Source: a virus
Virus record (IMG/VR): IMGVR_UViG_3300031669_004775
Location: 19,346 to 83,345 of that record
Direction: 5' to 3' (one strand)
DNA: 64,000 nt
In this document: in pieces, positions 1,506-38,871 of the stretch
Numbering within the stretch: position 1 is the stretch's first letter
Layout of the letters: every line of letters starts with the position of its first letter
Position numbers and translations under genes: made by a program
Notes under the pieces: model-generated
Seen by the model: the letters and a program-made list of their open reading frames with translations, nothing else
Told to the model about the DNA's origin: nothing
Databases searched by the model: none

Positions 1506-1685
1506 TTACTCCTCCTTATAAGATCTTTTTAAATTTTCTAGAAGATCTTCATCTTCCATATAATATAATCCTTCATCAGTTGGACAACCATTTAATATTA
1601 GTTGCCCCAATCGAAGGTCTGGATATGTATACCAAACCTTCGATATTATTCTTAACATTTCAGGTATTCTTTTTGAACTTCTCAT
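1506..1685 (-). CDS. small conserved phage protein (59 aa) between beta' and beta
   Basis: A 59-codon frame starts with an ATG that overlaps the beta' stop (ATGA) and ends with TAA just before the beta ribosome site, so it is translationally coupled on both sides. The protein begins MRSSKRIPEML and contains PDLRLGQLILN followed by an acidic EDEDLLENL tail. I have the impression that small proteins with an R-I-P...W...PDLRLGQL pattern are widespread in phages and bacteria, but I know no function for them. Its place inside an RNA polymerase operon is suggestive only. Confidence 0.7.
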   Translation of the reverse strand: MRSSKRIPEMLRIISKVWYTYPDLRLGQLILNGCPTDEGLYYMEDEDLLENLKRSYKEE

Positions 1686-4363
1686 GATATAATTTCTCCT
1701 TTTAAAATTTTATCCATTATACCTGAATATTTTCCTTGATTTAAAATTCCTTGCAAAATACTTCTTTTTGGATTTGAGAATGCCATTGCTAATATCCAAC
1801 TTTCACGGTTCGGAACTGATTGAATTGAATAATAATCTGGTGTTATTAGATGTCTATCTTTTATAAGTCTCCATTTTTCAAATCCTTTCCACATTAATTG
1901 AGCAACAACACATTCATAATGGACATGATAGATATCTTTATTATACACTTCAAATAATTCTTCAACTATATCTGTGTATGTTTTATTTTTAAATTTGTGA
2001 AGAAGCTGTGATACAGTTGCTAAATCTCCAATAATATCTTTCTGTTTCAATGATTCATCCTCTAAACCTTCGCCTTGTATAATAGCTGATCCTGATGTAT
2101 GAAAAGTTCTTAAAACTAATTGAGTTCCTCGTTCACCAAGAGTTTGCGCAGCAATTATACCAACAAAGCGACTATTTAATCTTTTATATAAGTCACCATA
2201 GCATTTATTACATAACTTTGGAGACTTACATAATATAGGACTTCGAATCCAAATTGTTTTTCCAATTATATCTTTATAATTTTCTTTAGTAATAACTTCT
2301 AAATTTTCTTTAACTCGTTGATATCTATTAACTAGCATTCTTGCTTTTCTTTTAGTTTTAACATAAACTTCAAGGAGATCAGTTGTGCCACAGTCATCTA
2401 ATTCTGTATCAATTTGAAGATTAGCGCAAGTAAAAATTAACTTTCTGGAAAGATAACCTGATGTTCCTGTATTTAATGCAATATCAAGAAGTCCTTTTCG
2501 GCATCCATATGTTGAGTAGAAAAACTCTTTTTCAGTTAATCCTTCAACTAAATTATGTTTAATAGGAATCGGCAGAATTTCTCCATCAAAGTTAGATACA
2601 AATCCTCTGGACATTATAATCTGTTTCACTTGATCCCAGCTTCCTCTAGCACCAGATTCAATCATATATGCATATTCAAAACTATTTCTTAGAGTTTGTA
2701 TAATGCCCTTATTTGATAGAGCTATTAATTGTTCTCTAATTGTACTTTTTAAATATATTGCATCTCTTAAATCTGTTAGTTCTTTTGATTGAAAATTTTC
2801 TAATGACATAGTACAACCAAATAGTGTTGCATATGTAAAACCAATTGTTTTAATTCTATCCAAAACTTTAATAACTTCATCAGCTGGATAACTATCTTTT
2901 ATATCATTTAAAATGTATAAAAGTTTCTTTTCATTTACTAACTCATTAATTTTTGGATAATTATCTGGTAGTGCATCATTAAAAATACTTAAACCAGTTT
3001 GATCATCCAGTTGACCATCGAATACGCCTGTAGTTAAAAAATAAATTCCTAATATAATATCTTGACTTGGGGTAGTTGTTAAATTTTCATTTGATGGACT
3101 GCTCAAATTACGAGAAGGTAACATTCTTTCAATTATTTCTTGTTTAGCTTCTTCTGTAATAGGAATATAGATTGCCATTTGATCTCCATCAAAATCGGCA
3201 TTAAATGGAGCACAGACTAATGGATGAATTTTAATAACTTGATCCGATGTAATTAGAATTTTAAAACCTAGCATTCCAAGTCTATGTAAAGATGGTTGTC
3301 TATTTAATATACATATCTCACCTTCAACTGTATCTTTACATATTTTAAAAAGGTCAGGTTTTCTAAATTCAATACAGTTATCAACAAAGTCTAATGCATC
3401 GTTTAATAATTTAAATCTTCCTATTTCAATTATTCGTTTTGCAATTGGAAGTTTAAATATTTCCAATGCCATAAAGTATGGAAGTTTACATTCATTTAAT
3501 AAAAGAGAAGGATCAGGGGTTATTACCGCTCGACCTGAAAAATCTATTCTCTTCCCTAAAATATTTCCACGTATTAGACCTTCTTTCTTTGCCATTTTTT
3601 CAAGTATTCTGCTATATAACTCATTCGCATTTTTCTGTATCTGTTTAAAATATGTATAGTATAAATTTTTATCTCTTTGAACATTTATATTTGTACCATG
3701 CATTAAAGTTTTATTAGTTAGAATCTGAACATAGTATCTATTAATTTTATCCATTAAATGCTTTCCCGCCCCACCTCTTGATACAGGTCTTAGATCGGGA
3801 GGTAATACAATTATTTGATTTATTAAAAGATTATCAATATTCTCTGAGATAATTTTCCAGTCTTCTATTCCTTCATCTGATAGTCCTTTAGAAACATCAT
3901 AAATTAGTTTATAAATTGCATCTGTTCTTTCATAGATTTCTACTCCGCTTGGTCTAATATCTTCACTAGCAACTACATGCTCCAGACCATCAATATACAT
4001 ATAACTTTTTTCATTTTTCATTAAGTCATCTAAAGCTGATTTTATACTCTTTCCACCAATTTCATTTAATAGATCATAAAATAAAGGATTTATTATTGGA
4101 AACGGTAATATAATTTTTGCAAATCTTGTTCGTCTTACATCACTATTAACAATATCTACCTTACATAGATTACATTTACTACCAGTTTTTACATTGGATG
4201 GTCCATAATATATTCCACATTGACAAGTGTAATTTTTAACTGGTCCAAAAATTTGCTCGGAGAATAGACCATCAGGGTGAAATTTCTTTTTTGCTATTAC
4301 TTTTAAGGATGTAACTTCTTCTAGTTGTTCACAAAACTGTTGATAGTTCAGTATCTTTGGCAT
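1682..4363 (-). CDS. RNA polymerase beta'-like subunit (paralogue A, 893 aa)
   Basis: Largest subunit of a multisubunit RNA polymerase, carrying the catalytic magnesium site. The absolutely conserved NADFDGDQMA motif lies at residues 388-397. An N-terminal zinc-binding module has cysteines 47, 49, 64 and 67, and GKRIDFSGRAVITPDP (about 270-285) matches the clamp/switch region. A second zinc site reads CKSPKLCNKCYG, and LGERGTQLVLRTFHTSG is the trigger-loop region. The C-terminus (SWILAMAF...ILKGEIIS) corresponds to the normal beta' end, so the protein is complete but much shorter than the roughly 1400-aa bacterial subunit. It precedes its beta partner, the reverse of the bacterial rpoB-rpoC order. 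The start has GAGGAG upstream and overlaps the preceding gene by 35 bases. Confidence 0.93.
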   Translation of the reverse strand: MPKILNYQQFCEQLEEVTSLKVIAKKKFHPDGLFSEQIFGPVKNYTCQCGIYYGPSNVKTGSKCNLCKVDIVNSDVRRTRFAKIILPFPIINPLFYDLLNEIGGKSIKSALDDLMKNEKSYMYIDGLEHVVASEDIRPSGVEIYERTDAIYKLIYDVSKGLSDEGIEDWKIISENIDNLLINQIIVLPPDLRPVSRGGAGKHLMDKINRYYVQILTNKTLMHGTNINVQRDKNLYYTYFKQIQKNANELYSRILEKMAKKEGLIRGNILGKRIDFSGRAVITPDPSLLLNECKLPYFMALEIFKLPIAKRIIEIGRFKLLNDALDFVDNCIEFRKPDLFKICKDTVEGEICILNRQPSLHRLGMLGFKILITSDQVIKIHPLVCAPFNADFDGDQMAIYIPITEEAKQEIIERMLPSRNLSSPSNENLTTTPSQDIILGIYFLTTGVFDGQLDDQTGLSIFNDALPDNYPKINELVNEKKLLYILNDIKDSYPADEVIKVLDRIKTIGFTYATLFGCTMSLENFQSKELTDLRDAIYLKSTIREQLIALSNKGIIQTLRNSFEYAYMIESGARGSWDQVKQIIMSRGFVSNFDGEILPIPIKHNLVEGLTEKEFFYSTYGCRKGLLDIALNTGTSGYLSRKLIFTCANLQIDTELDDCGTTDLLEVYVKTKRKARMLVNRYQRVKENLEVITKENYKDIIGKTIWIRSPILCKSPKLCNKCYGDLYKRLNSRFVGIIAAQTLGERGTQLVLRTFHTSGSAIIQGEGLEDESLKQKDIIGDLATVSQLLHKFKNKTYTDIVEELFEVYNKDIYHVHYECVVAQLMWKGFEKWRLIKDRHLITPDYYSIQSVPNRESWILAMAFSNPKRSILQGILNQGKYSGIMDKILKGEIIS

Positions 4364-4580
4364 CTACTGGTTTCTCCTCTTTTGATTTAAGTGAATCTAT
4401 TAAATATTGTGCTATAAATTTTAAATGCTGCTTTACCTTATCTGCTATTATCTCATCAACTAATGGCATTAAGGTATTAATAATAACTTGTGCATCTTGT
4501 TTTTTTATAATTGTCTCATTATTCCTAACATATTCTTTAATTCTATTTTCAATATATTGATCTAATGGATGATTGTTCAT
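4329..4580 (-). CDS. small helical hypothetical protein (83 aa)
   Basis: The frame overlaps the UBC-like E2 gene upstream by 32 bases and the beta' gene downstream by 35 bases, which is typical of this genome and supports real translation. AAGGAA lies nine bases before the ATG. The protein is charged and predicted to be largely alpha-helical (DQYIENRIKEYVRNNETI, later VKQHLKFIAQYLIDSLKSK). There are no cysteines, no membrane segment and no recognised domain. Its position between the ubiquitin-like operon and RNA polymerase does not reveal which it serves. Function unknown. Confidence 0.65.
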   Translation of the reverse strand: MNNHPLDQYIENRIKEYVRNNETIIKKQDAQVIINTLMPLVDEIIADKVKQHLKFIAQYLIDSLKSKEEKPVDAKDTELSTVL

Positions 4581-5013
4581 TGTATATAATTCCTTTCATA
4601 AGATTAAAGTAGAATGGTTGTCCTTGAGCATCAACATTTTTTGTTTCATAAAGATTGGCAATTGGTGTATTATAACATTCATCAAGGTTGTAAACTTCAA
4701 GCATACTAATTAATAGATTCTTCAGATTTTCAATATCCAGAACATATTGTCCTTGTAGATCATTGGATAAACAAAGTTCATTTGTTTTAGAATCTACATT
4801 AGGATGCCATCCATATACCATAACTTTTTTTAATTTAGTATCGTATGTTTTAATACAAAATCCTTCTAAATGATAAATTTTATGTATATTGATTATTTGT
4901 CGATAAGTTTTATTTTGTAAAGTAAACTTTGGAATTATTTTTTCAAAGTAAAAATCATAATTCGTGGATGGAATATTTCCGGTTCCACATATAGTTACAT
5001 TGTGATGAATCAT
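4549..5013 (-). CDS. UBC-type E2-like conjugating enzyme candidate (154 aa)
   Basis: ATG at 5013 is preferred over an earlier one at 5055 because AGGAGGT sits eight bases upstream and the start is two bases past the stop of the preceding E1-like gene. In the middle is HPNV (residues 70-73) followed by NELCLSND, with Cys81 eleven residues after the His. In eukaryotic E2 enzymes an HPN motif precedes the catalytic Cys by about this distance (HPNI...ICLDIL). The hydrophobic helix ENLKNLLISMLEVYNLDECYNTPIANL matches the E2 helix after the active site. The expected role is to accept the ubiquitin-like protein from E1 as a thioester. The tryptophan-proline after the Cys is not obvious, so this is a divergent member. 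Operon context with E1, Ubl and JAB genes supports the call strongly. Confidence 0.6.
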   Translation of the reverse strand: MIHHNVTICGTGNIPSTNYDFYFEKIIPKFTLQNKTYRQIINIHKIYHLEGFCIKTYDTKLKKVMVYGWHPNVDSKTNELCLSNDLQGQYVLDIENLKNLLISMLEVYNLDECYNTPIANLYETKNVDAQGQPFYFNLMKGIIYNEQSSIRSIY

Positions 5014-5014
5014 A

Positions 5015-5917
5015 TTATGCACCTCCTGTTTCTGACAAAATATAAATTTCATCATGTATAAGAACCGGTCTAAGTTTCGAAGTTCCGTTTTTAGTTTGAA
5101 CTATTTTTTTCAAAAAATTAATTACATCTTCTGGTTGTCTTAAACTATTTTGTGGTATTATTTGATATTTTGTTTTAGGTGCATCTGGAAATTCAAAAAT
5201 ATTTTTAGCAATTGAGCTTCTTTCTTTGACTGCCAACTTTAAATTAGATGTTCTATTCTTTTTTAGTATTGGTTGTATAACTTCATGAATCCGTGGTAAT
5301 CTTTCCACATCCTTATCTAGATCATAAACTATATCATATCTTTGTTTTGAACTGCATATATTCTGTAATATTATTGACTTAATTGTATCAATATGAATAC
5401 ATTTAACTGATTGACTTTTTAATAACTCTTCTAGAATATTGCTACATAATATTAAATTTGTAGCATAATGAGCAGCTGTACTTATTTCATGTTTTGATAA
5501 CTTATAGGAGTACTCTCCTTTTAATTGACTTTCATTTTTAAATCTCTTTTCAAAATCTAATATTAAAATCCTTTCTGTTATAAACATTTTTAAATCAATG
5601 TTAATATCCCTTTTTCCAAACACATTTCTGCAATCAATTATAAGGTCGGTTGGTGCTAATTGTGTAATACCATCTTTATAAAACTCTACCCTTGGTTCAA
5701 TTTCAGTATCATAAGTAGAAAACATATCATGCAATACATGTACTTTTGGTTGACAAATATCTACTTGTTTAAAAATACCAATAGATATGTCTTTTGAATC
5801 AACTGTATCAGCATCAATTAATATTAACTTACTTATTTCTGAACTTTCAGCAAGATGTTTACAAAGATGTGCTCCTAATGTTCCAGTTCCAATTATTGTT
5901 AAACTATCCAATTTCAA
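5015..5917 (-). CDS. second ThiF/E1-like Rossmann protein, apparently degenerate (300 aa)
   Basis: The N-terminus is a nucleotide-binding Rossmann fold: LTIIGTGTLGAHL with glycines 10, 12 and 15, and LILIDADTVD at about 32-40, as in ThiF/MoeB/E1 enzymes. The next element, which in active E1s reads N..RQ and binds ATP, is replaced by DISIGIFKQ. LIIDCRNVFGKRD stands where CVDN...R is expected. It may therefore bind nucleotide weakly or serve as the inactive half of a heterodimeric E1. The C-terminal 150 residues are unfamiliar and end in SETGGA, a glycine pair one residue from the terminus. It lies between the ubiquitin-like gene and the E2 gene. A full E1 role is not established. Confidence 0.6.
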   Translation of the reverse strand: MKLDSLTIIGTGTLGAHLCKHLAESSEISKLILIDADTVDSKDISIGIFKQVDICQPKVHVLHDMFSTYDTEIEPRVEFYKDGITQLAPTDLIIDCRNVFGKRDINIDLKMFITERILILDFEKRFKNESQLKGEYSYKLSKHEISTAAHYATNLILCSNILEELLKSQSVKCIHIDTIKSIILQNICSSKQRYDIVYDLDKDVERLPRIHEVIQPILKKNRTSNLKLAVKERSSIAKNIFEFPDAPKTKYQIIPQNSLRQPEDVINFLKKIVQTKNGTSKLRPVLIHDEIYILSETGGA

Positions 5918-5944
5918 AGATTAAGATCTCCTTTCTGAAGAATT

Positions 5945-5972
5945 GGATGGGGATCCAATAGAATCCCCATCC
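5945..5972 (-). terminator. strong hairpin between Ubl and second E1 gene (attenuator or processing site)
   Basis: A perfect 10-bp stem (GGATGGGGAT / ATCCCCATCC) with an 8-base loop lies between the ubiquitin-like gene and the E1-like gene that follows it. The stem is far more G+C-rich than the surroundings. There is no uninterrupted T run after it on the minus strand, so complete termination is doubtful. Partial termination, or RNA end protection that raises ubiquitin-like protein over enzyme, is more likely. Confidence 0.55.
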
Positions 5973-5983
5973 TCGGAGCACAA

Positions 5984-6475
5984 TTAACGACCTTTACGAC
6001 CAGCAGGTTTCATAAATTCCAAACTATCTCCGTTTTTCAGTATATAACTTCCAGGGATTTCTTTTCCATTGACCAGACCTGTGGACAGTTTATCCACATT
6101 CAGAACTTCCCGCAGGAACTCACCAACTTCAGATACACTTTTTCCTTCAACAGGAAAAGCTCCTGAACTAGCACCACAAGTTACCTGAATTGTGGTTTTC
6201 ATTTTATTACCAAATGATGCATAGGGTTTATCTAAAACACTATGTCCAGAAAAACCTAATTCAGTTAATGGACCTTCTTGTTTTGGTGCAGTAGCTACTG
6301 CAGTAGGTGCTACTGAGGGTTTGGATGAACTTCCTTGAAGCTTTATAATAGCTTTAATGATAATATCTTTGCGTTTTTTGGTCATACCTGGAATTCCAAG
6401 TTTATCAACACATAGACGTCGAAGTTCGGGGACGGTCATTTTATCCAGATTTTCATAAGTATATTCGCTTGCCAT
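5984..6475 (-). CDS. ubiquitin-like modifier with N-terminal SAP-like domain (163 aa)
   Basis: Two domains are joined by an alanine/proline/threonine-rich linker (about residues 49-68). Residues 8-47 (LDKMTVPELRRLCVDKLGIPG..KKRKDIIIKAI) resemble SAP/Rho-N helix-extended-helix nucleic-acid-binding domains. Residues 92-157 look like a beta-grasp fold: KTTIQVTC strand, helix SVSEVGEFLREVLNV, then LVNGKEIPGSYILKNGD and SLEFMKP. The ending PAGRKGR resembles the (P)AG.KG tails of bacterial ubiquitin-like proteins found beside JAB and ThiF genes. It is the likely substrate passed through the E1 and E2 proteins of this operon. The tail ends Gly-Arg, not Gly-Gly, so the protease may first remove the terminal Arg. 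AAGGAG precedes the ATG. Confidence 0.68.
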   Translation of the reverse strand: MASEYTYENLDKMTVPELRRLCVDKLGIPGMTKKRKDIIIKAIIKLQGSSSKPSVAPTAVATAPKQEGPLTELGFSGHSVLDKPYASFGNKMKTTIQVTCGASSGAFPVEGKSVSEVGEFLREVLNVDKLSTGLVNGKEIPGSYILKNGDSLEFMKPAGRKGR

Positions 6476-6505
6476 GATTTTAATTCTCCTTGCTTTGTTT
6501 TACAG

Positions 6506-7192
6506 TTATTGTTTAAGAGCTCTTATTTTCGCAATAGCGGACATCTGTGTCATATCAAAATAAATTTCAGATGGTCCAATGTTATTTTTTATAACTACAT
6601 TATAAAATGCTGCACACATAAGTGTAGCTACCCACACATTGGTGAAGTAGAGTTGAGGATCTGAATTTGCTAATTCTTCACAACTCATTTCCTCTGGTAA
6701 TTTATCTGCGGGATTTGCAATTTCTGGATGATAAGAACAGAGATCAGGTGTTAAATCTTTCCCCCCTTTCCTGACATAAATTTGTACATTACCATCCGTA
6801 AATTCATTTCCACCAGATATCAAAGTAATATTGCTTAACATATTACAGTATTTAGATGTGATCATTCTAGTTTTATGATTATCAACACATAGAAATACAA
6901 TATCGTCTGACTTTATGACTTCATTAATATTTACATTATTTATATATGCAGGATAATAATCTAAATCTATATTTGGAAACTTATTTTCTAAATCTCCACC
7001 TTTAATCCTAGATTTATTTCCCATCTGTGTAAATTCTTGTCTTTGATAATTTTTACTTTCATACGAATCACCATCTACTAATGTCAACTTTGCGTTAATA
7101 TCTGTGGCGTAATTTAAAAATCTTGCTATCTTTTCACATAATACTGAACCAACGCCACCCAACCCAATGATTTTAATGGATAATTCTTTCAT
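6506..7192 (-). CDS. E1/ThiF-family adenylating enzyme, intact (228 aa)
   Basis: This protein activates the C-terminus of a ubiquitin-like protein by adenylation. It carries GLGGVG at residues 10-15, LTLVDGDSYESKNYQRQEF with the aspartate and the N..RQ signature (Asn48, Arg51, Gln52), and LCVDNHKTR (Asp104, Asn105, Arg109). All of these are standard for ThiF/MoeB/E1 ATP sites. Candidate thioester cysteines are Cys171 in EEMSCEELA and Cys152. At 228 residues it matches small single-domain ThiF proteins, including those of PRTRC loci. Its ATG overlaps the JAB stop by four bases (ATGA), so the two are translationally coupled. Confidence 0.85.
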   Translation of the reverse strand: MKELSIKIIGLGGVGSVLCEKIARFLNYATDINAKLTLVDGDSYESKNYQRQEFTQMGNKSRIKGGDLENKFPNIDLDYYPAYINNVNINEVIKSDDIVFLCVDNHKTRMITSKYCNMLSNITLISGGNEFTDGNVQIYVRKGGKDLTPDLCSYHPEIANPADKLPEEMSCEELANSDPQLYFTNVWVATLMCAAFYNVVIKNNIGPSEIYFDMTQMSAIAKIRALKQ

Positions 7193-8847
7193 CTATTTCC
7201 CCTAAATTTTTCAAATAATTGTTTAAGTGAGTTTATACTGTCTGCTACCATTTGTTTAGAAGGATCTGGTATTATATTAGATGGATTTGGATTTTCTTTT
7301 GCTGCTTTATAATTAGAAATTTCTTCTTCGCTTATATTCTTTATATTAACTCCATCTAAATCTAATAGATCGCTTTCTGTTTCTGTAGATAATAATTTTC
7401 CACAGAATGGACATGATACTCCATTATCATCTTTTTTTGTCATTGATAAATCAAACTGACTTCCACAAGTTTTACAATTGATTTTATAATCTTGTTTTAA
7501 ATCAGAAAGATAGTCATCAAAATTATAGGGATCATCATCTTCATCTTCATCTTTATCCTTTAATCCTATATCAAGTAGGGTTAAATGCTCATCTGATTTA
7601 CATGATGGACATATAATATCATCTTTAATTTCTCCACAGTCATCATAATAAAATGATACAATTAGATTACACTTCTCACATTCATATGACTCTTTATCAA
7701 ATATATCATCTTCCTGTTCTTCAATGGATCCTTGATTTTTCTCTACCATTATTTTAGCAACATATTCAATTGCTCTTTCCTTGAATGCACAGGATTCACA
7801 AGGAGTTGGTTTGGTAGGAGTAGTTATATCAGTAATAAGTGGACCTTGGTCATGCGGAGGAAATGTAATAGGTTTAGTTTTAACTCCAACATTTTGAGGT
7901 GGAACTTTAATAGATTCTCTACTCCAAACATCTGGATCAAAATTTCTATTCCATCCATTTTTAATACGAGGAGCCCAAGGTCCGCGATTAAATTGAGGAT
8001 ATCCATGTCTATAATGCTCTGGCCAATTTATGAATGACTGATTAAAATTACCATAAATATGACGAACTTCATGTTCTTCAATAGCATCTAACCATGAGGG
8101 TGGAACTTGAGCTTTAATAGCATTCTCACTTACTACCTTGTATCGTTTATCATATTTACGATAGGTTTTAAATCCTGCGGTTGTAAATTTTGGAGTTGTT
8201 TCAACCATTTTTCCATTGATCCACCTATAAACTCTTGTGGTAGGAATTTGCTCAACTTCATCAATCTCTTCTTTTAATTCTATACCTTTCATATATTCTT
8301 CTGGTTTAACTATTACTCTGTTACCATTTGAAACAATTGAGGCGGAGATACTTATTAAATCAGAGTTCATATTTCCAAATGTAATATGTAATCCATCGAA
8401 AGACTCCTCATCTCCTTGATCTGTTCCTGAATGAAATGCAGACATTGAACTATGACTATGAATATCACCAATCATGGTCCAACCATCTATAACAACTGCC
8501 CTATTATATTCAATTGATGCAGGACTCACTTTTTGTGCTGGCGGAAATAACTTATATTTTTTAGTTTTTTCATTATAAAATAATAATACAATTGCTTCTG
8601 ATCTATGTTCTTTTTGAACAGCTCTAAAGAAATTAGAAACCTTAGCTATAGATATTGATGGTATTTTTTCAATATTCATCTTTGCTGTTGCTTGAACACT
8701 TTTTAATATTGAAATATTTTTAACTGGTGATACACTATCCATAATGCCCAATTTCTTTTTTATAAAAATACCTTCTTTTGCAACTATATAATAAATATCA
8801 TCATCTGGTAGTTCTTGTTTTCCATCGGCAACTACTATTTTAAACAT
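7189..8847 (-). CDS. JAB/JAMM metalloprotease with C-terminal zinc ribbons (552 aa)
   Basis: Predicted zinc isopeptidase that matures the ubiquitin-like protein or removes it from targets. The motif GDIHSHSSMSAFHSGTDQ (His130, His132, Ser140, Asp143) fits H-x-H-x7-S-x2-D exactly, and Glu84 in SEAIVLLFY is a fitting catalytic glutamate. The middle is a proline- and tryptophan-rich linker (about 245-335). The last 200 residues contain three cysteine-pair modules: CESCAFKE, CEKCNLIV...CPSCKSD, and CKTCGSQF...CPFCGKLL, which look like zinc ribbons for binding protein or nucleic acid. The start has AAGGAG upstream and overlaps the E2-D-like gene by eight bases. PRTRC plasmid loci also contain a JAB protein, but the ribbon extension here is unusual. 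Confidence 0.82.
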   Translation of the reverse strand: MFKIVVADGKQELPDDDIYYIVAKEGIFIKKKLGIMDSVSPVKNISILKSVQATAKMNIEKIPSISIAKVSNFFRAVQKEHRSEAIVLLFYNEKTKKYKLFPPAQKVSPASIEYNRAVVIDGWTMIGDIHSHSSMSAFHSGTDQGDEESFDGLHITFGNMNSDLISISASIVSNGNRVIVKPEEYMKGIELKEEIDEVEQIPTTRVYRWINGKMVETTPKFTTAGFKTYRKYDKRYKVVSENAIKAQVPPSWLDAIEEHEVRHIYGNFNQSFINWPEHYRHGYPQFNRGPWAPRIKNGWNRNFDPDVWSRESIKVPPQNVGVKTKPITFPPHDQGPLITDITTPTKPTPCESCAFKERAIEYVAKIMVEKNQGSIEEQEDDIFDKESYECEKCNLIVSFYYDDCGEIKDDIICPSCKSDEHLTLLDIGLKDKDEDEDDDPYNFDDYLSDLKQDYKINCKTCGSQFDLSMTKKDDNGVSCPFCGKLLSTETESDLLDLDGVNIKNISEEEISNYKAAKENPNPSNIIPDPSKQMVADSINSLKQLFEKFRGNR

Positions 8848-11500
8848 TAATTAAGCTCCTTGAGTCATTTACATATAGAAAGTGTGAGTTTTCACTTAGA
8901 TAAAAACCTCCATGAAAATTAGGAACTGCTCTAATAAAACCATTTTTATCTTGCTCGGATTTTGAAACTCTTGGATTTGGTATACAATGTAATGTACAGT
9001 CTTTATGAAGCGACATATCAGAATTAGCGCTATAACTATCATACCTTCTTGAATACGAGTCTAATGGATGATATCTCAAAGCTCTTTTCATTTGACTTTG
9101 AACCATCAAGAGTCCTGGATCATTAACATTACCATAATAATTAGGAATAGCAATATCTCCCGATTGAAGTTTAATTTTCTTTAGATCAAATTCAACATGA
9201 TCATTGCTCTTCCATAGTATAGAGTTTATTGGAATTAGTTTGAAATTTTCTATAACATCTTCATACCATAAAGTACAACCATTTGAACATAATACTAATG
9301 GTTGCGGACCGTCAGTAATAATACCAACAATAATATTGTAATCTTTTTTTGGAAAATTTGATATTCTTCCTTTTTCTGCTTTAATCTTCATTCCAGCAGA
9401 TACCTGTTGAAATTTAGTTGTAATTTTTCTGATATATCCAATACGAACATTAGAACCAGTTACAAATAATTCTTCAGATAGATTTCCTAGTTTATTTGCT
9501 AATATAAATGATATGTTAATGGTTTTTACTTTCTCTTCTATTTTAAATGCTTCAATTCTTTTAATATCTAGAACACTTAAAGGGTTTGTCCAATTTGCAA
9601 CTACAACTAGATCACCAACTTCAAATTTAACAATGCCAGAGTGGGTATCTATTTCAAATGTGGTATCATTCTTAATGAGATTTTTAATATTTTCTGATTT
9701 AGATTTTTCACAAAGTGCATTAACATTAATATTATAGTGAGTAGGTGTTTTATAGACTATGGATGGAATTGTGCTTCCATTATCATCAAACTCTATAAAT
9801 TCCATAATACTTCGACCAACTGAAGTTGCTTTAGAATTTTGACATATTGCTGTATAATCAAGTTTTGGATATATTCTTCTATTGCGACGATTGTTTGAAG
9901 TATTATTACTATATACTGCTAAGTCGGCATTTTGTCTTTGAGGATCCATAGACTTAAATTTAAACATCAAGTCATTATTTGATGCAACATCAATACTATC
10001 AAATATACATCTTTCTATTTGTTTGATAATAGGAGAATCACTTGCATTAGAATGACTGTATAAATATTCATCCCCTATTTTCAAATTCATATCATATATG
10101 CTTAAATTATCTGTATCTACTTTTTCTAATCCTTTTGGAAGATTGTTAGCTAAATAATATCTATTTCCCATTCTTATCTCTGGTCGACCATCTATACATT
10201 TTCTAATATAGTAAATTTTTTTACATACTTCTGACCCAGTGATATCTATATATTTAATAATATCACCGGATTTAATAATGAATCCATTAAGATCAATAGT
10301 TTTAATAAATCGCTGTTCTTCAATTCTTTCTTTTAAATATTGAATAGATTTTCTATTTAGTGTAAAATTAAATACTTTTTCATTATATGAAATTCTTATT
10401 ATTTTAGGATCGTCTCCTCTAATGCCAATAAATGAAATAACGAAATATTTCTTTGTTTTATTTACATTTTCAAAAGAATCTCCAATTTCTAATTTAAGTA
10501 TATCAGTTATATAAAAACCAGTAGTGATGTCATAATAAAGCTGATCAACTCTTTTATTAATTTTTCCAGTTTGAATTTCTCCAATGATTGCGGGTTTTGT
10601 AAAGGTTTTTAAAAATGTAGTATAAGTATCTGAATTACCATTATTATTTGATCTGCTGGTTCTTCTTTCTTTTATAATATTAATAAGTTCAAAGATATTG
10701 TGATTATATCTAACCCAGTCAGCGACATATACAAACATTGGATCTTTTCTTGATAGATATTGCCATTCTAAAAAATTTGATATTCCTACAACGTTTTTAT
10801 ATGCATTGATGTTATATGTGTAGTCTGTATTAAAGATACTTGTCCAAAATATATCAATAGTTGATCTAACAGCTTCATGATCTGTGTTATATGATTCTGA
10901 ATTAAGTCTATCACCAAAACATATTGCCTGACTTTCTGCAATATTTGACATTGGCATTTTTAAAAGATAATCAGATAATCCTATCATTTGACTAGTTCTA
11001 ATAAAAGAATAACCAACTTCGACATTTGCTTTTTCATTAATATAAATGACAAATACAACATATGGAAATGCAAGATTTAATTTATAGTATCTGTTAGTTG
11101 ATGAAGTTTGTGTAACATTGCTCTCTAACCAACCTTTAATATCATATTCTTCTAGTAATCCTTTTGATTTAATTTCTTCATACATAAGATCAAAGTTTAA
11201 TGACATTGCTACTGTTCTAAATTGGGGTGGTTCTTCAATAACATATATTCTTCCTCCATTTTTAAGCGTTTCAATATATCTACAACCAGGAGGAAGAATC
11301 GTTGAAGTTTTTTCTGATAATAATGAATATTTTTTAAGATATTCATCTGTTGGTAATACTTTTATTCGTTTAGTTGGTAATGCTTCAGTATGATCCTGTG
11401 CTGATAAATCAGTTGGTTGATGCGAAATTAATAGAGATGTATAACGTTTATTTATTCTAATATCATAATCTTCATAAAGATCTTTCATTCCCAATTGCAT
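8840..11500 (-). CDS. large protein with prokaryotic E2-family-D (PRTRC protein B)-like N-terminus (886 aa)
   Basis: Residues about 65-200 carry PPGCRYIE, PPQFRTVAMSL and LAFPYVVFVIYIN, then LLKMPMSNIAESQAICFGD with Cys194. This layout (P-V-F strand, P..N, then C-x-G) recalls the Prok-E2 family D / PRTRC protein B domain, in which the Cys is taken to be the conjugating residue. The remaining 650 residues are beta-rich with repeated basic segments such as SGDIIKYIDITG and GDLVVVANW that look like small SH3/KOW-type barrels; I do not recognise a named domain there. It begins the JAB-E1-Ubl-E1'-E2 block. The E2 assignment is inference from motif and context, and the long C-terminal part could select the target. 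Confidence 0.55.
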   Translation of the reverse strand: MQLGMKDLYEDYDIRINKRYTSLLISHQPTDLSAQDHTEALPTKRIKVLPTDEYLKKYSLLSEKTSTILPPGCRYIETLKNGGRIYVIEEPPQFRTVAMSLNFDLMYEEIKSKGLLEEYDIKGWLESNVTQTSSTNRYYKLNLAFPYVVFVIYINEKANVEVGYSFIRTSQMIGLSDYLLKMPMSNIAESQAICFGDRLNSESYNTDHEAVRSTIDIFWTSIFNTDYTYNINAYKNVVGISNFLEWQYLSRKDPMFVYVADWVRYNHNIFELINIIKERRTSRSNNNGNSDTYTTFLKTFTKPAIIGEIQTGKINKRVDQLYYDITTGFYITDILKLEIGDSFENVNKTKKYFVISFIGIRGDDPKIIRISYNEKVFNFTLNRKSIQYLKERIEEQRFIKTIDLNGFIIKSGDIIKYIDITGSEVCKKIYYIRKCIDGRPEIRMGNRYYLANNLPKGLEKVDTDNLSIYDMNLKIGDEYLYSHSNASDSPIIKQIERCIFDSIDVASNNDLMFKFKSMDPQRQNADLAVYSNNTSNNRRNRRIYPKLDYTAICQNSKATSVGRSIMEFIEFDDNGSTIPSIVYKTPTHYNINVNALCEKSKSENIKNLIKNDTTFEIDTHSGIVKFEVGDLVVVANWTNPLSVLDIKRIEAFKIEEKVKTINISFILANKLGNLSEELFVTGSNVRIGYIRKITTKFQQVSAGMKIKAEKGRISNFPKKDYNIIVGIITDGPQPLVLCSNGCTLWYEDVIENFKLIPINSILWKSNDHVEFDLKKIKLQSGDIAIPNYYGNVNDPGLLMVQSQMKRALRYHPLDSYSRRYDSYSANSDMSLHKDCTLHCIPNPRVSKSEQDKNGFIRAVPNFHGGFYLSENSHFLYVNDSRSLINV

Positions 11501-11503
11501 TTG

Positions 11504-11881
11504 TTATTCCCCTCTATAGAATTTTATAAGTTTTGCAAATTCAGTTATTATTTTTTTTGCTGATCTTCCCTCAAGTTTATGAGATTGATGTCTTCGTGGC
11601 ATCTGGGGTAAATCCGCACCTTGAATATCAATTATTTTTATTGAATAGTAATTAGAAATATATTCATCCATTGGATCTCTTTCTAATGTTAAAAATGAGA
11701 TGTGTCCTTTATTTTTAGCAGGAACTTCTAATGCAAGAAATATATTTGCTCCACTTGGCAGTACTTGAGGATATTTTACTTTTGTGCTTTCTTCTTCCCA
11801 TATTTTTGTGCAAAATTCCTTTATCAGTACTGTAATATCACTTGATGGGATATCTTTTAAAAGTTGATCTATAATATCCAT
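11504..11881 (-). CDS. hypothetical protein (125 aa), first in ubiquitin-like block
   Basis: No recognised family. The protein reads as a compact alpha/beta fold: helix MDIIDQLLKDI, VKYPQVLPSGANIFLALEVPA, then strands GHISFLTLERD and YYSIKIIDIQGADL, a basic PRRHQSHK segment, and a C-terminal helix KKIITEFAKLIKFYRG. Its stop is separated from the next gene only by that gene's ribosome site (GAGGGG spans the stop), so it belongs to the same transcript as the E2-D/JAB/E1/Ubl genes. It may be a further component of that pathway, but nothing in the sequence shows this. Confidence 0.6.
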   Translation of the reverse strand: MDIIDQLLKDIPSSDITVLIKEFCTKIWEEESTKVKYPQVLPSGANIFLALEVPAKNKGHISFLTLERDPMDEYISNYYSIKIIDIQGADLPQMPRRHQSHKLEGRSAKKIITEFAKLIKFYRGE

Positions 11882-11889
11882 AATTGCTC

Positions 11890-12204
11890 CTATTTTATAG
11901 GTGAAATTTTATATCTCTGATCAGAAGTTTCTAACCAATCAACAGTTGCAAATGGAACTGATCTCCAGTCACCTTTATCTAAATCATAGACATGAATTAT
12001 TCCACTCTTTTGCATCAACTTTAATATCTTTGGCATATTAACACTTTTAGGATGATGTTTCTGTGGAATTTTTTCAAAATCTAAGGTACATTTCATAGTT
12101 CTTGAAACTCCACTCTTTTTAATAAATCGAATGGTTGCTTCTCCAGCTTCATATATGGTTTCCCAAAATTTAACTGCATTTCTAATCTGCTCTTCTGCTG
12201 CCAT
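11890..12204 (-). CDS. small beta-barrel protein resembling the phage DUF2693/WYL_2 family (104 aa)
   Basis: After an N-terminal helix the protein reads ATIRFIKKSGVSRTMKCTLDFEKIP, then IIHVYDLDKGDWRSVPFATVDWLE. A strand with F-x-K-x-x-G-x-x-R followed by a later V-Y-D...W-R-S is the pattern I associate with small Sm/SH3-like barrels common in phages (DUF2693/WYL_2). Such proteins are thought to bind nucleic acid or small ligands, but no activity is established. It sits between the radical SAM gene and the start of the ubiquitin-like block. Confidence 0.5.
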   Translation of the reverse strand: MAAEEQIRNAVKFWETIYEAGEATIRFIKKSGVSRTMKCTLDFEKIPQKHHPKSVNMPKILKLMQKSGIIHVYDLDKGDWRSVPFATVDWLETSDQRYKISPIK

Positions 12205-12206
12205 TT

Positions 12207-13229
12207 TTATACCCTCCTATCGAGATGAATTAAATCTTCTGTTCCTTGATCTGTTTCATTAATATGTTTACTCATTAATAAGCATGTATGGTTACATCCT
12301 AGACAATGAACTTCTTTATCTTTTGAAATTGCTTTTTCAGCAATAAATGATATGTTACCTTTTGAGTCGATTAAATTTGATACCTTAACTAATTTTGGAG
12401 CATGAGTTCCTCTTATTCTTAAACATAATCTAATCGTTCCATCTGCATCAACGGTTACATTATGAAGATCTTTCTCCAATTCACAATCTAATTCTGATGG
12501 TAGAATTTCCCAGATTTTTGGTAATAAGATTTCTTTCATATGAATATCTAAATCACTATCATTTAACGAATCAAATACATCAGATAATTCTGAAGATTGT
12601 TCTACCAATAAGTTTTCATCACTTATATTAGAGAAATCATAAAATGGACTTTTTGCTATATCAACAAATGTTATATCACTGCTGATCCCATTTTCTGTTA
12701 ATAGTTTAACAAGATCATATAGATATTTTACATTATGTTTCATAACTGTTATTTCAGCAACAACATCATTAATACGATCTTTGAGTTTTAAAAGATTTTC
12801 AAAACCAGATATGCTTTTTATTATTCTGTCAAACTTACCTTTTTCATTAAATGATGGATCAACAGATGCAGTAAATCCTTGAATATGATCAACGTTATCA
12901 AATAAGTTTTCAATCAATGGAATAATTTCATTTGTATTATTTGATATGATAGTGTAGTGAATATAATTTTCATTACAGTGGTTGATAATATCAGCTAAAT
13001 CTTTCCTCAAAATTGGCTCGCCGCCATACCAGATATGAAAGCAATCTGGATTGTGCAACTGAAATTGATCTAATCCTTTGATAACTTGCTCTGTGGTCAT
13101 TTCATTTTTTATATAATGACTCATAGGAGGATATTCAGAAGGCATGGTGGGATAGTTTTTTACAATTGCACAGTAGTCACAATTTAGGTTACATCTACGA
13201 GTTAACAACCAATTTACTATTCTTATCAT
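12207..13229 (-). CDS. radical SAM enzyme with C-terminal SPASM-like cysteines (340 aa)
   Basis: Cysteines 13, 17 and 20 form the CxxxCxxC site for a 4Fe-4S cluster that cleaves S-adenosylmethionine. FHIWYGGEPILRKDL gives the usual GGEP motif, and the barrel continues through TIISNNTN and FTASVDP. Near the C-terminus VTVDADGTIRLCLRIRG and HCLGCNHTCLL resemble the SPASM/twitch auxiliary-cluster region used by peptide-modifying enzymes (anSME, PqqE type). It is longer than QueE, so 7-deazaguanine synthesis is less likely than peptide or protein modification. AAGGAGG lies close before the ATG. The substrate is unknown. Confidence 0.85.
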   Translation of the reverse strand: MIRIVNWLLTRRCNLNCDYCAIVKNYPTMPSEYPPMSHYIKNEMTTEQVIKGLDQFQLHNPDCFHIWYGGEPILRKDLADIINHCNENYIHYTIISNNTNEIIPLIENLFDNVDHIQGFTASVDPSFNEKGKFDRIIKSISGFENLLKLKDRINDVVAEITVMKHNVKYLYDLVKLLTENGISSDITFVDIAKSPFYDFSNISDENLLVEQSSELSDVFDSLNDSDLDIHMKEILLPKIWEILPSELDCELEKDLHNVTVDADGTIRLCLRIRGTHAPKLVKVSNLIDSKGNISFIAEKAISKDKEVHCLGCNHTCLLMSKHINETDQGTEDLIHLDRRV

Positions 13230-23552: not shown

Positions 23553-24830
23553 TTAAATCTTTATTACATATCCAGTTTTATTAATGTTATTTATACTTCC
23601 ATTTGGAGTTAGAATCCAAATAATTTTTTTTGGTAATAATTTTCTAGATATTTGATTTATATTTTCACAAAATCCATCTGTAAATGCTAGACAAACATCA
23701 ACTCCTAACTCTTTACATCTTTCCAAACCAGGAAATAGTGATGTTCCTCCCCTACCTTTTGCTTCAAATTTAATATCTCTAATTTTCTTTGGTTGATATT
23801 CACTTTCAATTACTGTATCAACTTGCATAACTGTAACATGACAGTGTCTATCTTTTTCTAATATATTTTTCACACCAGAGAGACCTTCTGCAATCCATTG
23901 TATTAACATACTACCTGATGTATCAATAACAATACCCACCTTAAATGTGAAATCTCTAGTTCGACCTGGAAAAGGTGATATTTCTGGAATACCTTTATTT
24001 CCAATTATAAATACATACCCTCTCTTTCGATTGACTTTAGTGTGAGATCTTTTGAATTTAGATAGTCTGCTTCCTTTAATAAGTTTTTTAATTAATGCAT
24101 AATATGGAACTTTTGGTGGACCCAATGCTTGTTCAACTAATTCTTGTATATGTGCTGGAAGATTTCCTCTATCTTTTGAAAAACTTCTAACAGATTTTTT
24201 TATAATATCTGTTAGAAAACTATCAATTTTTCTTGATAAAGAATTTGGATCTGGACTTTTAGATAAACCTTTTCCCCATTCTGAATGATTTTCTAACATC
24301 TTAAAGATTTTTTTCATTTCTTCTGAAAGCTTATCCATTGAATCTTTATTCTTTTTTAATAGCTCATGAAAATACCATTCAGTGGTTTTACCATCAGGAA
24401 GGTTTAAACTACTTGGAAATATTAATGGCCAGGTTTCTCCATTTATACAAAGTGTTTGCTCAAATTTTGCTTGCTGATTAGCAGCAGCATCTGCTGCAAA
24501 ATTCCATAAATCTCTTTTTATATGGAACTTTGTAATATCAGTCTCATCCGAAAGAATTCTTATTAATCTTGCTACATGCTTATTTAATAAATGCATTCCT
24601 TCATGTTCAAGAACTAATCTAATATTTTTATCATTTGTTCCATCGGTTAATTTAGGATTATACCATAGAGTTATTGTTCCATCCATTTCAGGTGCTACTC
24701 CCATAATAGATGGAAAATTGTCAGATGGTTTTCTTCTTATTATAGAAAATAAATATCCCCAATAATCATACTTTAGAACAAATTTAGCAAGTAATTCTTT
24801 TATTCTTTGATCGGTTTGATTTCCAGGCAT
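23553..24830 (-). CDS. metallopeptidase-like/vWA domain protein (DUF2201-type, 425 aa)
   Basis: LVLEHEGMHLLNKH (HEGMH at residues 76-80) is a zincin-type HExxH motif, placed as in the DUF2201 putative metallopeptidase domain. The C-terminal third is a von Willebrand A-like domain with an intact metal site IVIDTSGSM and later RGGTSLFPGL and LAFTDGF. Proteins of this pair of domains usually work with a MoxR AAA+ ATPase, and one is encoded immediately upstream (24852-26072). Such pairs are thought to act as chaperone-like remodelling machines. The phage substrate is unknown. Confidence 0.75.
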   Translation of the reverse strand: MPGNQTDQRIKELLAKFVLKYDYWGYLFSIIRRKPSDNFPSIMGVAPEMDGTITLWYNPKLTDGTNDKNIRLVLEHEGMHLLNKHVARLIRILSDETDITKFHIKRDLWNFAADAAANQQAKFEQTLCINGETWPLIFPSSLNLPDGKTTEWYFHELLKKNKDSMDKLSEEMKKIFKMLENHSEWGKGLSKSPDPNSLSRKIDSFLTDIIKKSVRSFSKDRGNLPAHIQELVEQALGPPKVPYYALIKKLIKGSRLSKFKRSHTKVNRKRGYVFIIGNKGIPEISPFPGRTRDFTFKVGIVIDTSGSMLIQWIAEGLSGVKNILEKDRHCHVTVMQVDTVIESEYQPKKIRDIKFEAKGRGGTSLFPGLERCKELGVDVCLAFTDGFCENINQISRKLLPKKIIWILTPNGSINNINKTGYVIKI

Positions 24831-24851
24831 ATTGACTCCTTTACATTTGGT

Positions 24852-26072
24852 TTATTCTAGTCCAAGTCCAACCAATGGATCATAGAATTCTTTCTTGTAT
24901 TTATTTGATCTTTGAGTCAATATAATGTGAAGTTTTACCATATATTGAAATGCTTTTGAGCTTCTTTCATATTGATCTATTTGAGACATAAATAATGCTG
25001 CTGTATCTATTGGCATTAATAATAGAAACTCAATTACATTCTTTAAGTTACCATTTTCATAGTTAGGCATTGTGGTAACCATAAAAGTTCCGAAACTTAT
25101 CATTAATTCACCAAGTTTGGAGTTATCATTATTTTTAATAAGATCTTTTATTTGAGATTCAACTTTATTAAAATTATAAAAGATATCTCTTGGATTAATA
25201 TCCTTCTTATCTCTTGCAAATTCTAAAAACATTCTAGTTTGATTAGTATTAATCAAACCAGAACATTTGGGTTCAAACTTATCAAATAATATACTTCCAT
25301 GAGCTATTTCCATTTTCCATAGATGATCTGAAATCTTTTCCCAACTTGCAGGATTGGCGTAAACTGCTCCTACTTTTTGAGATTGAAAGTCATAGACCCT
25401 TTCTGGATGAGTTTGAATATACTCAATTACAAATGGATGAAAGTCATTTAGAATTGCATAATCAAGAAAATCTTTTGCACTAACCTCTGTATAAATATGA
25501 AGATTTCGACGAAGTCCTGCAGCATCCTCAATTATATCCATTGAATATTCAGAATCATCTGGATTATCAATTGATATAACAAACCAATGTTTTGGAAACT
25601 CATACCTATGGATGGCATATTCATTTTGAACTTGCCATAATAATTGTTGTAATGCATGATCTCCACGACCACACTCGTCAATAACAAATAGTCCATAGGT
25701 ATCTTTACCTTCTGGCACGAAATCCGAATACAACATTTTGAATCTTGTATTTCCATTGTCGATAACTGGAAATGGAATAATAAAATCATCCCTTGATAAA
25801 ACGGGAGCTTTGATCATAATAATATGAAATTTTTGACCTACTTCTTGGGTTAATTCATCAACTATCTGATAACAGATTTGAGTCTTACCAACGCCAGCTG
25901 GTCCAATAATTCTATAACATTGTCTTTCAACATTTCTTCCTTGTTGCCAGGAGATGATTGTTGATTTAATATCATCTTTTAATAATTCTTTAATTCTGCT
26001 GATTGAAAGAACTGAAATATTTAGTTTCTCGTAATATTTCTGTTCTTCGACTGGAATATTTTCATTTGACAT
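24852..26072 (-). CDS. MoxR-type AAA+ ATPase (406 aa)
   Basis: Walker A GPAGVGKT is at residues 57-64. GLFVIDECGRGDHALQQLLW supplies Walker B and the following arginine-bearing helix. VISIDNPDDSEY is sensor 1, and AAGLRRNLHIYTEV an arginine-finger region. The layout is that of MoxR/RavA-like AAA+ proteins, which remodel or activate partners carrying vWA domains. It is followed by exactly such a gene (23553-24830), 21 bases away, so a MoxR-vWA complex is likely. Part of the same transcript as the gp32-like candidate upstream. Confidence 0.82.
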   Translation of the reverse strand: MSNENIPVEEQKYYEKLNISVLSISRIKELLKDDIKSTIISWQQGRNVERQCYRIIGPAGVGKTQICYQIVDELTQEVGQKFHIIMIKAPVLSRDDFIIPFPVIDNGNTRFKMLYSDFVPEGKDTYGLFVIDECGRGDHALQQLLWQVQNEYAIHRYEFPKHWFVISIDNPDDSEYSMDIIEDAAGLRRNLHIYTEVSAKDFLDYAILNDFHPFVIEYIQTHPERVYDFQSQKVGAVYANPASWEKISDHLWKMEIAHGSILFDKFEPKCSGLINTNQTRMFLEFARDKKDINPRDIFYNFNKVESQIKDLIKNNDNSKLGELMISFGTFMVTTMPNYENGNLKNVIEFLLLMPIDTAALFMSQIDQYERSSKAFQYMVKLHIILTQRSNKYKKEFYDPLVGLGLE

Positions 26073-32855: not shown

Positions 32856-33705
32856 TATTGACTCCATCTGTACAAATTCTATTAGCTAAAGCTCCAGTTG
32901 AACATTCATCTTTATGACCTTTTGTATAATGACATTTCTCACAACAACTCCAAGCTAAATTAGGATCAAGCGCAAAAAATGGTTCTAATTTTTGTGATCT
33001 TTCGTGGTGAACATCTGTTGCTAAATCTTCACAATACTGACATTTATAATCATCTCTTTCAAGAACGAAATTTCTAAAAGTTTGATACTCTTGTGATGTA
33101 TATGGTATTTCATTATTTTTAAATGGATCAGAATGTAAATTAAATAATGGACATTCATTTTTACATTTTTGAGAACAATAGTAATAAGAGTTATCTAATC
33201 CGTGGTGTTCTACATTTCTTATTCTTTCATATAGTTGAATATTTGTTGGTGTAAACCAACCTCCCTGTTCTTTTGAATTTGAACAATTATGATTTTTACA
33301 ATGAACTTGAATTTCTTTTTCTTTTGGTTTATCTGGATTATATCTCATTTCTTCAATTTTTGAAAATAGCGTATATTTTTCTTTTAGCATTTTAATAGTT
33401 CTTTTTCTTTTTTTGGATGCTTCTATCAAAGCTTTTTTTAATTTCTTTCTATATTGAGGATTATTAAAAGTTGATGATTTATCTTTCCAAACTTTTTTAT
33501 TTGACTCACTATTTTTTAGTTTAGATTCTATAGTTTGTTCTCTTCCATACATTGGATTATTTTTTCCTGACTGTTTTATTTTATTTGTTTCTGAATTTCT
33601 TTTTCTTATTCCTGGACAAGAATTAAATTTAGGACTGCAACATTGTCTGTTATTAGATGTTTTATATTTTGCTTCTTGTCCACAACCATATTCACATAAG
33701 TTCAT
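32842..33705 (-). CDS. HNH homing-type endonuclease with NUMOD3-like motif (287 aa)
   Basis: N-terminal cysteine finger (CEYGCGQEA...CC...CPG), then KQSGKNNPMYGRE, the NUMOD3 DNA-binding signature of homing nucleases, followed by a lysine-rich helical region. The C-terminus is an HNH domain: ERDDYKCQYCEDLATDVHHER, then CCEKCHYTKGHK. Free-standing nucleases of this design invade intergenic spots in phages. It sits between beta and Nudix genes, and its ends duplicate a GGAG(G)TCAATAATGAA start context, consistent with insertion at a gene start. Its ATG overlaps the beta stop region. Confidence 0.85.
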   Translation of the reverse strand: MNLCEYGCGQEAKYKTSNNRQCCSPKFNSCPGIRKRNSETNKIKQSGKNNPMYGREQTIESKLKNSESNKKVWKDKSSTFNNPQYRKKLKKALIEASKKRKRTIKMLKEKYTLFSKIEEMRYNPDKPKEKEIQVHCKNHNCSNSKEQGGWFTPTNIQLYERIRNVEHHGLDNSYYYCSQKCKNECPLFNLHSDPFKNNEIPYTSQEYQTFRNFVLERDDYKCQYCEDLATDVHHERSQKLEPFFALDPNLAWSCCEKCHYTKGHKDECSTGALANRICTDGVNNECS

Positions 33706-38315: not shown

Positions 38316-38797
38316 TCTATGTCTCCATCTAAGACCTTATATTTCCAATGATAAAATTTAGATATTTCTTTGTGACCAGGAAGCTGAATTTCATATGCTA
38401 ATCTAATTTTCTTTATTACCTCAATTACTCCAATTTCTTTAAATTCAATAGTAGATGTAACCCAAATTTCACCACTATATTTTGCATCAATTGTTAGCTT
38501 TCTTCTTATTAACTCTTTATTTGATATTATTTTAATTGTGTTATAATTAGAGGGTTCAAATACTATCCATCTTTTTTCGATAGATCCTTCAATTCTATTG
38601 TTTCCTATTGCAGTAATACATTGATTAATAGTAGGAGCAAAAGAAATTCTTGGAATTGTTTTATCCTCTAGTCCTAATTTAGTAAAAAGATTTTCTGGAA
38701 TTTTGGGTTTTACTATTTTACCATCTAATTCTTGTTGAGCTATATGATATAGTTTTTTGGTAGACTGAATTTCAGATAAGTAATTTTCAATTATCAT
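38312..38797 (-). CDS. conserved phage protein, LYHIAQ family (161 aa)
   Basis: KKLYHIAQQELDGKIVKPKIP, ENLFTKLGLEDKTIPRISFAPTINQCITAIG and later YSGEIWVTSTIEFKEIGVIEV. Proteins beginning with LYH(V/I)...L.G..L.P..P and later ED..TPRI.FAP.I occur in many large phages. The fold may resemble small ADP-ribosyltransferase/Tpt1-like proteins, but I see no catalytic set and this is a guess. The start overlaps the beta' stop by four bases. It is the other gene wedged between beta' and beta ends. Confidence 0.6.
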   Translation of the reverse strand: MIIENYLSEIQSTKKLYHIAQQELDGKIVKPKIPENLFTKLGLEDKTIPRISFAPTINQCITAIGNNRIEGSIEKRWIVFEPSNYNTIKIISNKELIRRKLTIDAKYSGEIWVTSTIEFKEIGVIEVIKKIRLAYEIQLPGHKEISKFYHWKYKVLDGDIE

Positions 38798-38871
38798 TTC
38801 CTTAATTCCTCTCCTGTTACCAATTTCTCTAATATTGATGGAGGCAGATCCTGTTCAGAAACCAATCCTGT
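38794..38871 (-). repeat. last 25 codons of beta', duplicated at 38208-38285
   Basis: The end of beta' (TGLVSEQDLPPSILEKLV...EELRK, stop) is repeated as the end of the fusion remnant. About six of 74 compared bases differ, nearly all silent, with one Leu to Met change. The low divergence means the duplication is fairly recent or is kept alike by selection or gene conversion. Confidence 0.85.

Follow-up and report, generated by a model that had tools for sequence, protein, structure and literature searches.

A predicted ubiquitin-like conjugation operon with a PRTRC-related core lies beside an RNA polymerase gene in jumbo phages

A 64,000-nucleotide stretch of viral DNA (positions 19,346 to 83,345 of the 83,345-bp IMG/VR virus record IMGVR_UViG_3300031669_004775; hereafter "the window") contains a minus-strand operon that, judged from its sequence, probably encodes a reversible ubiquitin-like conjugation system of jumbo phages, with a core related to the PRTRC/type-6d cassettes and with nucleic-acid-bound phage targets. 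A first-pass annotation of this DNA had assigned six adjacent open reading frames (ORFs) to such a system, and all six are present on the minus strand at the coordinates given below. In order of transcription, they encode a Prok-E2_D-like conjugating (E2) protein, termed E2D; a JAMM isopeptidase, JAB; a complete ThiF-like activating enzyme (E1), E1a; a ubiquitin-like protein (Ubl); a degenerate E1-like protein, E1b; and a small E2 candidate of the UBC type with an HPN...C motif. An 83-amino-acid (aa) gene and the gene for an RNA polymerase (RNAP) beta'-like subunit (1682-4363, -; PF00623, 1.1e-32) follow on the same strand.

The catalytic positions of JAB, E1a, E2D and the HPN...C protein are invariant or nearly so across distinct relatives of about 20-87% identity (70-81 sequences per protein), so the motifs noted in them are not the product of chance. 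E1a (6506-7192, -) matches ThiF (PF00899, 6e-20) and PRTRC_ThiF (TIGR03736, 4.7e-10), and carries the full motif set of an adenylating E1: GxGxxG (here GxGGxG), DxD, N..RQ (N48..R51Q52), DN and Cys. The R51Q52 pair (7037-7042), D104, the probable thioester cysteine C171 (6680-6682) and N185 are each found in 77/77 relatives, which upholds its description as an intact E1. JAB (7189-8847, -) matches PRTRC_A (TIGR03735) at 2.5e-15, with zinc-ribbon-like matches in a C-terminal extension, and its JAMM residues (H130-x-H132-x7-S140-x2-D143; 8419-8460) are kept in 81/81 sequences for the first histidine and in 80/81 for each of the other three.

E2D (8840-11500, -) joins an N-terminal Prok-E2_D/PRTRC_B-like domain to a C-terminal extension of ~650 aa; in one relative (L059) it is split into two ORFs of 233 and 717 aa. 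Its Cys194 (codon 10919-10921) is present in 76/80 relatives, the remaining four having gaps. The direct match to Prok-E2_D (PF14460) is weak (0.011), and tblastn found no match among isolated phages, where a profile was required. The family profile aligns with real PRTRC_B by hhalign (93.9%, 1.5e-7) with the cysteine in register, and matches both gp196 of Bacillus phage vB_BauM_KLEB27-3 (9e-27) and a homologue at locus L061 that itself matches PF14460 at 2.8e-12. It is thus the comparison of profiles with real PRTRC_B that supports the predicted E2-family-D identity. In three phages that lack the RNAP linkage (L053, L046, L060), two or three E2D paralogues stand 5' of JAB.

The Ubl (5984-6475, -) combines a Rho_N/SAP-like domain (about 6335-6448) with a ThiS/TGS-like beta-grasp domain (about 5987-6196) and ends in PAGRKGR, that is, in GRKG plus one arginine. 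Among 15 members, 14 match Rho_N (best 1.9e-7), 13 match TGS (6e-4) and 12 match ThiS (3.2e-4). The C-terminus is G-x-K-G followed by 0-8 residues in 69/76 sequences, of which 47 end exactly at the glycine and the rest go on for a few residues (such as C, R or DRKGC); four of the seven sequences without this ending are separate proteins holding only the N-terminal domain of the Ubl. These matches, together with the tail, bear out the beta-grasp assignment. The Rho_N-like domain, which probably binds nucleic acid, occurs in 57/58 RNAP-linked Ubls vs 0/5 others; the sole RNAP-linked exception, L048, also lacks E1b and the HPN...C protein. Four relatives have an extra gene before E2D (L015:4268-4594, L030:4048-4485, L033:4129-4491, L037:4034-4474) whose product shares its Rho_N-like domain with the Ubl and bears an acidic tail of low complexity where the Ubl has the beta-grasp domain; this protein is a possible substrate or partner.

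Directly 3' of the Ubl stop codon lies a 12-bp RNA hairpin (5945-5972, -; fold z -2.83). A hairpin at this point beats all 8 controls in 57/64 relatives (7 expected); its position is conserved and its sequence varies, and in L009 a T-run stands directly 3' of it. It is probably an attenuator or mRNA-end element and could raise the level of the Ubl over that of the downstream genes. The earlier proposal of a single transcript is qualified by this element.

PRTRC cassettes, or type-6d operons, occur on plasmids and elsewhere in bacterial DNA and encode a Ubl, a JAB, an E1 and a Prok-E2_D-type E2 (Iyer et al., 2006; PMC1779556). When compared with PRTRC loci taken from bacterial genomes (L153, L154, L155), the four core proteins of the window correspond and the order E2-JAB-E1 is the same. 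The phage profiles find the real PRTRC E1 (1e-25 to 4e-16), JAB (1e-12 to 4e-7) and E2 (best 4.8e-7); both E2D and the PRTRC E2 have an N...C site without the HPN histidine, and the PRTRC Ubl tails (AGAKG, GLGTKG) are of the xGxKG type of the phage Ubl, for which hhalign against PRTRC_C gives 3.5e-4 at a probability of only 37%. These findings support the suggested kinship and mark the predicted E2D-JAB-E1a-Ubl core as a phage counterpart of the PRTRC/type-6d cassettes. The phage locus differs from the cassette in having E1b, the HPN...C protein and the RNAP linkage, as well as the fused Rho_N, zinc-ribbon and ~650-aa extensions.

E1b (5015-5917, -; TTG start) matches ThiF at 1.9e-8, and its AlphaFold model matches UBA5, MccB, ThiF and Cap2, indicating an E1 fold. 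It keeps GxGxLG, and G10, G12, G15, D35 and K58 are each present in 82/82 sequences. The earlier count of two E1-type proteins holds insofar as E1a is catalytically complete and E1b is E1-like; E1b is degenerate, with the N..RQ motif absent. At its C-terminus (5015-5030 in the window, and in relatives) the sequence TG[AG]A is conserved at the protein level up to the last residue. That they are merely the ribosome-binding site of the following gene is plausible in the window (AGGAGG) but was rejected, since the residues are conserved through synonymous changes and also where the HPN...C gene starts farther upstream. The C-terminal domain, of beta-beta-alpha-beta-beta order in the model, was considered as a second beta-grasp Ubl and rejected as unrelated in profile comparison (0.8% vs the Ubl, 0.1% vs PRTRC_C). 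Eukaryotic heterodimeric E1s (SAE1-UBA2, APPBP1-UBA3) likewise pair a complete with an adenylation-dead partner and use a separate HPN...C E2, an analogy only.

The HPN...C protein (4549-5013, -; HPN at 4798-4806, Cys at 4771-4773) begins at 5013, as previously annotated, in preference to the longest-ORF start at 5055, because AGGAGG lies just upstream. We regard it as probably kin to UBC-type E2s. Across 70 sequences of ~20-45% identity, the pattern is HPN-x5-to-x9-C (HPN-x8-C here) with [LI] after the cysteine; in the numbering of the 168-aa ORF, H84 and C95 are each conserved in 70/70 and the asparagine in 65/70. In a profile search of the PDB, the real E2s 5nkz and 6xod were touched exactly at the active site, at non-significant E-values of 0.11-0.96. 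Its PN...C also aligns by hhalign with the N...C of E2D at a score of 21.3, and none of 60 block-shuffled controls reached this score (maximum 15.4). A UBC reference set sought with PF00179 in 399 genomes yielded none.

The alternative for this component, a small beta-rich protein unrelated to the UBC fold with a His-Cys active site, which would leave E2D as the only E2, we consider unlikely. It draws on the weak Pfam match (UQ_con, 0.0059) and on the AlphaFold model, which is confident (predicted local distance difference test 85.6, predicted template modelling score 0.77), has one main helix only and hence lacks most UBC helices; it is opposed by the invariant histidine and cysteine in their spaced motif, the contacts with 5nkz and 6xod at the active site, and the shuffle-controlled alignment with E2D. 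Since the confident model matches no PDB structure, the UBC identity of the protein rests on motif, profile and context. The claim of a UBC-like E2 therefore stands as regards the invariant site and falters as regards the fold: a structure prediction lacking the UBC fold had been named beforehand as counting against the claim, and this has in part come about.

The set recurs as a unit beside the polymerase. Searches based on E1a gave 17 and later 54 viral loci, and the gene order is the same in most of them. In a census meant to avoid that selection, of contigs picked by RNAP beta' alone with >9 kb upstream (n = 60, some near-duplicates), E1b was found in 57, the HPN...C protein in 54, JAB in 53, E1a in 51, the Ubl in 50 and E2D in 49, so the co-occurrence expected by the first-pass annotation is borne out. 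Spacing between E1b and the HPN...C gene is at most 60 nucleotides in 59/67. At L115, E1b, the HPN...C gene and RNAP are retained, with no core found within 10 kb; distant phages (RNAP 38-43% identical) still have E1-like genes in pairs together with an HPN...C E2, with JAB in some. On this evidence, E1b and the HPN...C gene are the part tied most tightly to the polymerase. The adjacency to RNAP had been recognized earlier, and the beta' gene is indeed a constant neighbor; the intervening gene for a small conserved 83-aa protein (4329-4580, -; detected by phmmer at about 29 loci) refines that layout.

We propose that JAB would trim the short extension after the GxKG of the Ubl, where present, and that E1a would adenylate the C-terminal glycine and then bind the Ubl in thioester linkage at Cys171. 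From there the Ubl would pass to the cysteine in E2D, in the small HPN...C E2 or in both, and on to a lysine or amino terminus of the target, from which JAB could remove it again; E1b may serve as a scaffold or pseudo-E1, pairing with E1a and/or delivering the Ubl to an E2. Because the Ubl has a Rho_N-like domain and E1b and the HPN...C gene are tied to the RNAP gene, the likeliest targets are nucleic-acid-bound phage proteins that act in transcription or in replication/recombination; gene linkage favors polymerase and DNA proteins over virion proteins. A specific version, in which the complete E1, the pseudo-E1 and both E2s would reversibly attach the Rho_N-bearing Ubl to the multisubunit RNAP of the phage itself or to its nucleic-acid-bound partners, is in our view rather unlikely.

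Besides the structural result for the HPN...C protein, for which Foldseek returned no PDB match (best E 0.77) and UQ_con was matched, below cut-off, by only 2/36 members, several points weigh against this system as proposed. At the positions of the Arg-Gln pair, E1b has N/S/T and other residues across the 82 sequences, and presumably cannot adenylate by the usual mechanism. E1a scores 39 bits against TIGR03736 (curated cut-off 144.75) and JAB 56.6 bits against TIGR03735 (curated cut-off 101.8); with these cut-offs unreached and no match to PRTRC_parB or PRTRC_E in the 83-kb record, a genome fragment, we call the phage set PRTRC-like. Many of the loci are related by descent, and there are near-duplicates among them. 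The components, the catalytic residues kept intact in E1a, in JAB and in the two E2-type proteins, the linkage and the PRTRC relationship can be read from the sequence itself; active conjugation and deconjugation, the transfer order, the substrates and the purpose are the most likely interpretation of these, and the targets are suggested by gene neighborhood and the Rho_N-like domain. Neither a substrate nor an E3 nor degradation machinery was identified.

Phages often modify host proteins, and the operon might instead serve counter-defence, by tagging and inactivating host RNA polymerase, nucleases or defence proteins, or through its JAB and E1/E2 parts, which would disturb host Ubl-tagging defences such as Bil or CBASS Cap2. 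CBASS Cap2 (an E2-E1 protein), Bil and Bub share with the phage set the E1 fold, ATP-dependent C-terminal activation and a phage-host context, and the E1 domains here are distantly related to the CBASS E1-E2 proteins. The similarity found is to the generic E1 domain only, however: among the PADLOC anti-phage system models, just the E1-domain part of E1-E2 models was matched (best 1.6e-7). Moreover, the genes hold a constant position linked to the phage polymerase and SbcCD across divergent phages, whereas counter-defence genes are usually patchy and mobile; we regard this explanation as rather unlikely. Still less convincing, and improbable in our assessment, is a sulfur-carrier role, in which the Ubl, once adenylated and thiocarboxylated, would donate sulfur for the modification of an RNA, nucleotide or peptide, like the carriers of thiamine, molybdopterin and siderophore pathways, with the neighboring radical S-adenosylmethionine (SAM) protein as acceptor enzyme and JAB trimming the precursor. 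The ThiS/TGS matches of the Ubl and the conserved radical SAM gene a few genes upstream fit such a pathway, but two proteins have invariant E2-type cysteines, rhodanese and ThiG/MoaE-like genes were not found among the genes scanned, and the nearest relatives, PRTRC-type operons, have an E2 alongside JAB. A part in virion assembly, with the Ubl tagging or maturing proteins of the head or tail, has a precedent in the role proposed for the Ubl-like/JAB pair of lambda tail assembly (PMC1779556). It is likewise improbable for an operon set among SbcCD, helicase and RNAP genes, outside the tail module, whose JAB lacks an NlpC/P60 domain.

The source is a tailed phage, in keeping with the earlier attribution: the record encodes a terminase large subunit, baseplate wedge and baseplate OB proteins, an endolysin and two multisubunit RNA polymerases, along with a UvsX-like recombinase, ribonucleotide reductase, SbcC/SbcD and gyrase subunits, and contigs bearing relatives reach 340 kb. 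The two sets of RNAP beta/beta' subunits (window 1682-4363, 33705-37769 and 38794-41817; contig 17806 to about 21000) recall phiKZ-like phages, which have a virion and a non-virion polymerase. Conserved neighbors upstream of the operon (11504-13229, -) are a 125-aa protein, a WYL_2 Sm-like protein and the radical SAM protein, whose gene (12207-13229) is kept in almost every RNAP-linked relative whose flank extends far enough. Elsewhere in the window are a VWA/DUF2201 protein and, adjoining it, one resembling AAA ATPases, together a MoxR-VWA-like pair (23553-26072), a queuosine salvage-like protein (60961-61854; PF10343, 1.3e-13) and tandem similar 108-aa proteins (63046-63372 and 63458-63784).

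The prediction of PRTRC-type Ubl operons dates back to 2006 (PMC1779556), and the literature searched contained no experimental function for them. Two isolated phages of ~217-235 kb, vB_BauM_KLEB27-3 (gp194-196) and Acinetobacter phage ME3, have a ThiF and a PRTRC_A-like JAB, KLEB27-3 additionally an E2D-like protein; as these phages carry annotated parts, a phage PRTRC-like core is not new in itself. In their regions, E1b, the HPN...C E2 and the RNAP linkage were not seen, and no Ubl was recognized nearby. What is new is the degenerate E1 and small HPN...C protein between core and polymerase gene, the Rho_N-like domain fused to the Ubl, the joining of E2D to its long extension, and the conserved hairpin directly 3' of the Ubl gene in most relatives. 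The open-access literature searched held no paper that names a comparable ubiquitin-like operon in a phage; of two jumbo-phage reviews, one mentions ubiquitin for eukaryotic viruses only (PMC7824862) and the other makes no mention of ubiquitin systems (PMC13282480). The expanded, polymerase-linked version thus appears to be undescribed so far. A PRTRC-like core is consistently present in a large jumbo-phage group, where it is coupled to a polymerase gene and supplemented with a pseudo-E1, a candidate HPN...C E2 and a Ubl that probably binds nucleic acid, which makes a case for bacterial viruses maintaining complex ubiquitin-like cascades. The operon offers a concrete field in which to search for substrates, among phage transcription and recombination proteins, and a simple route to reconstitution. 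If the Ubl were indeed placed on the phage RNAP, a viral polymerase, and with it phage transcription, would be under ubiquitin-type control inside bacteria.

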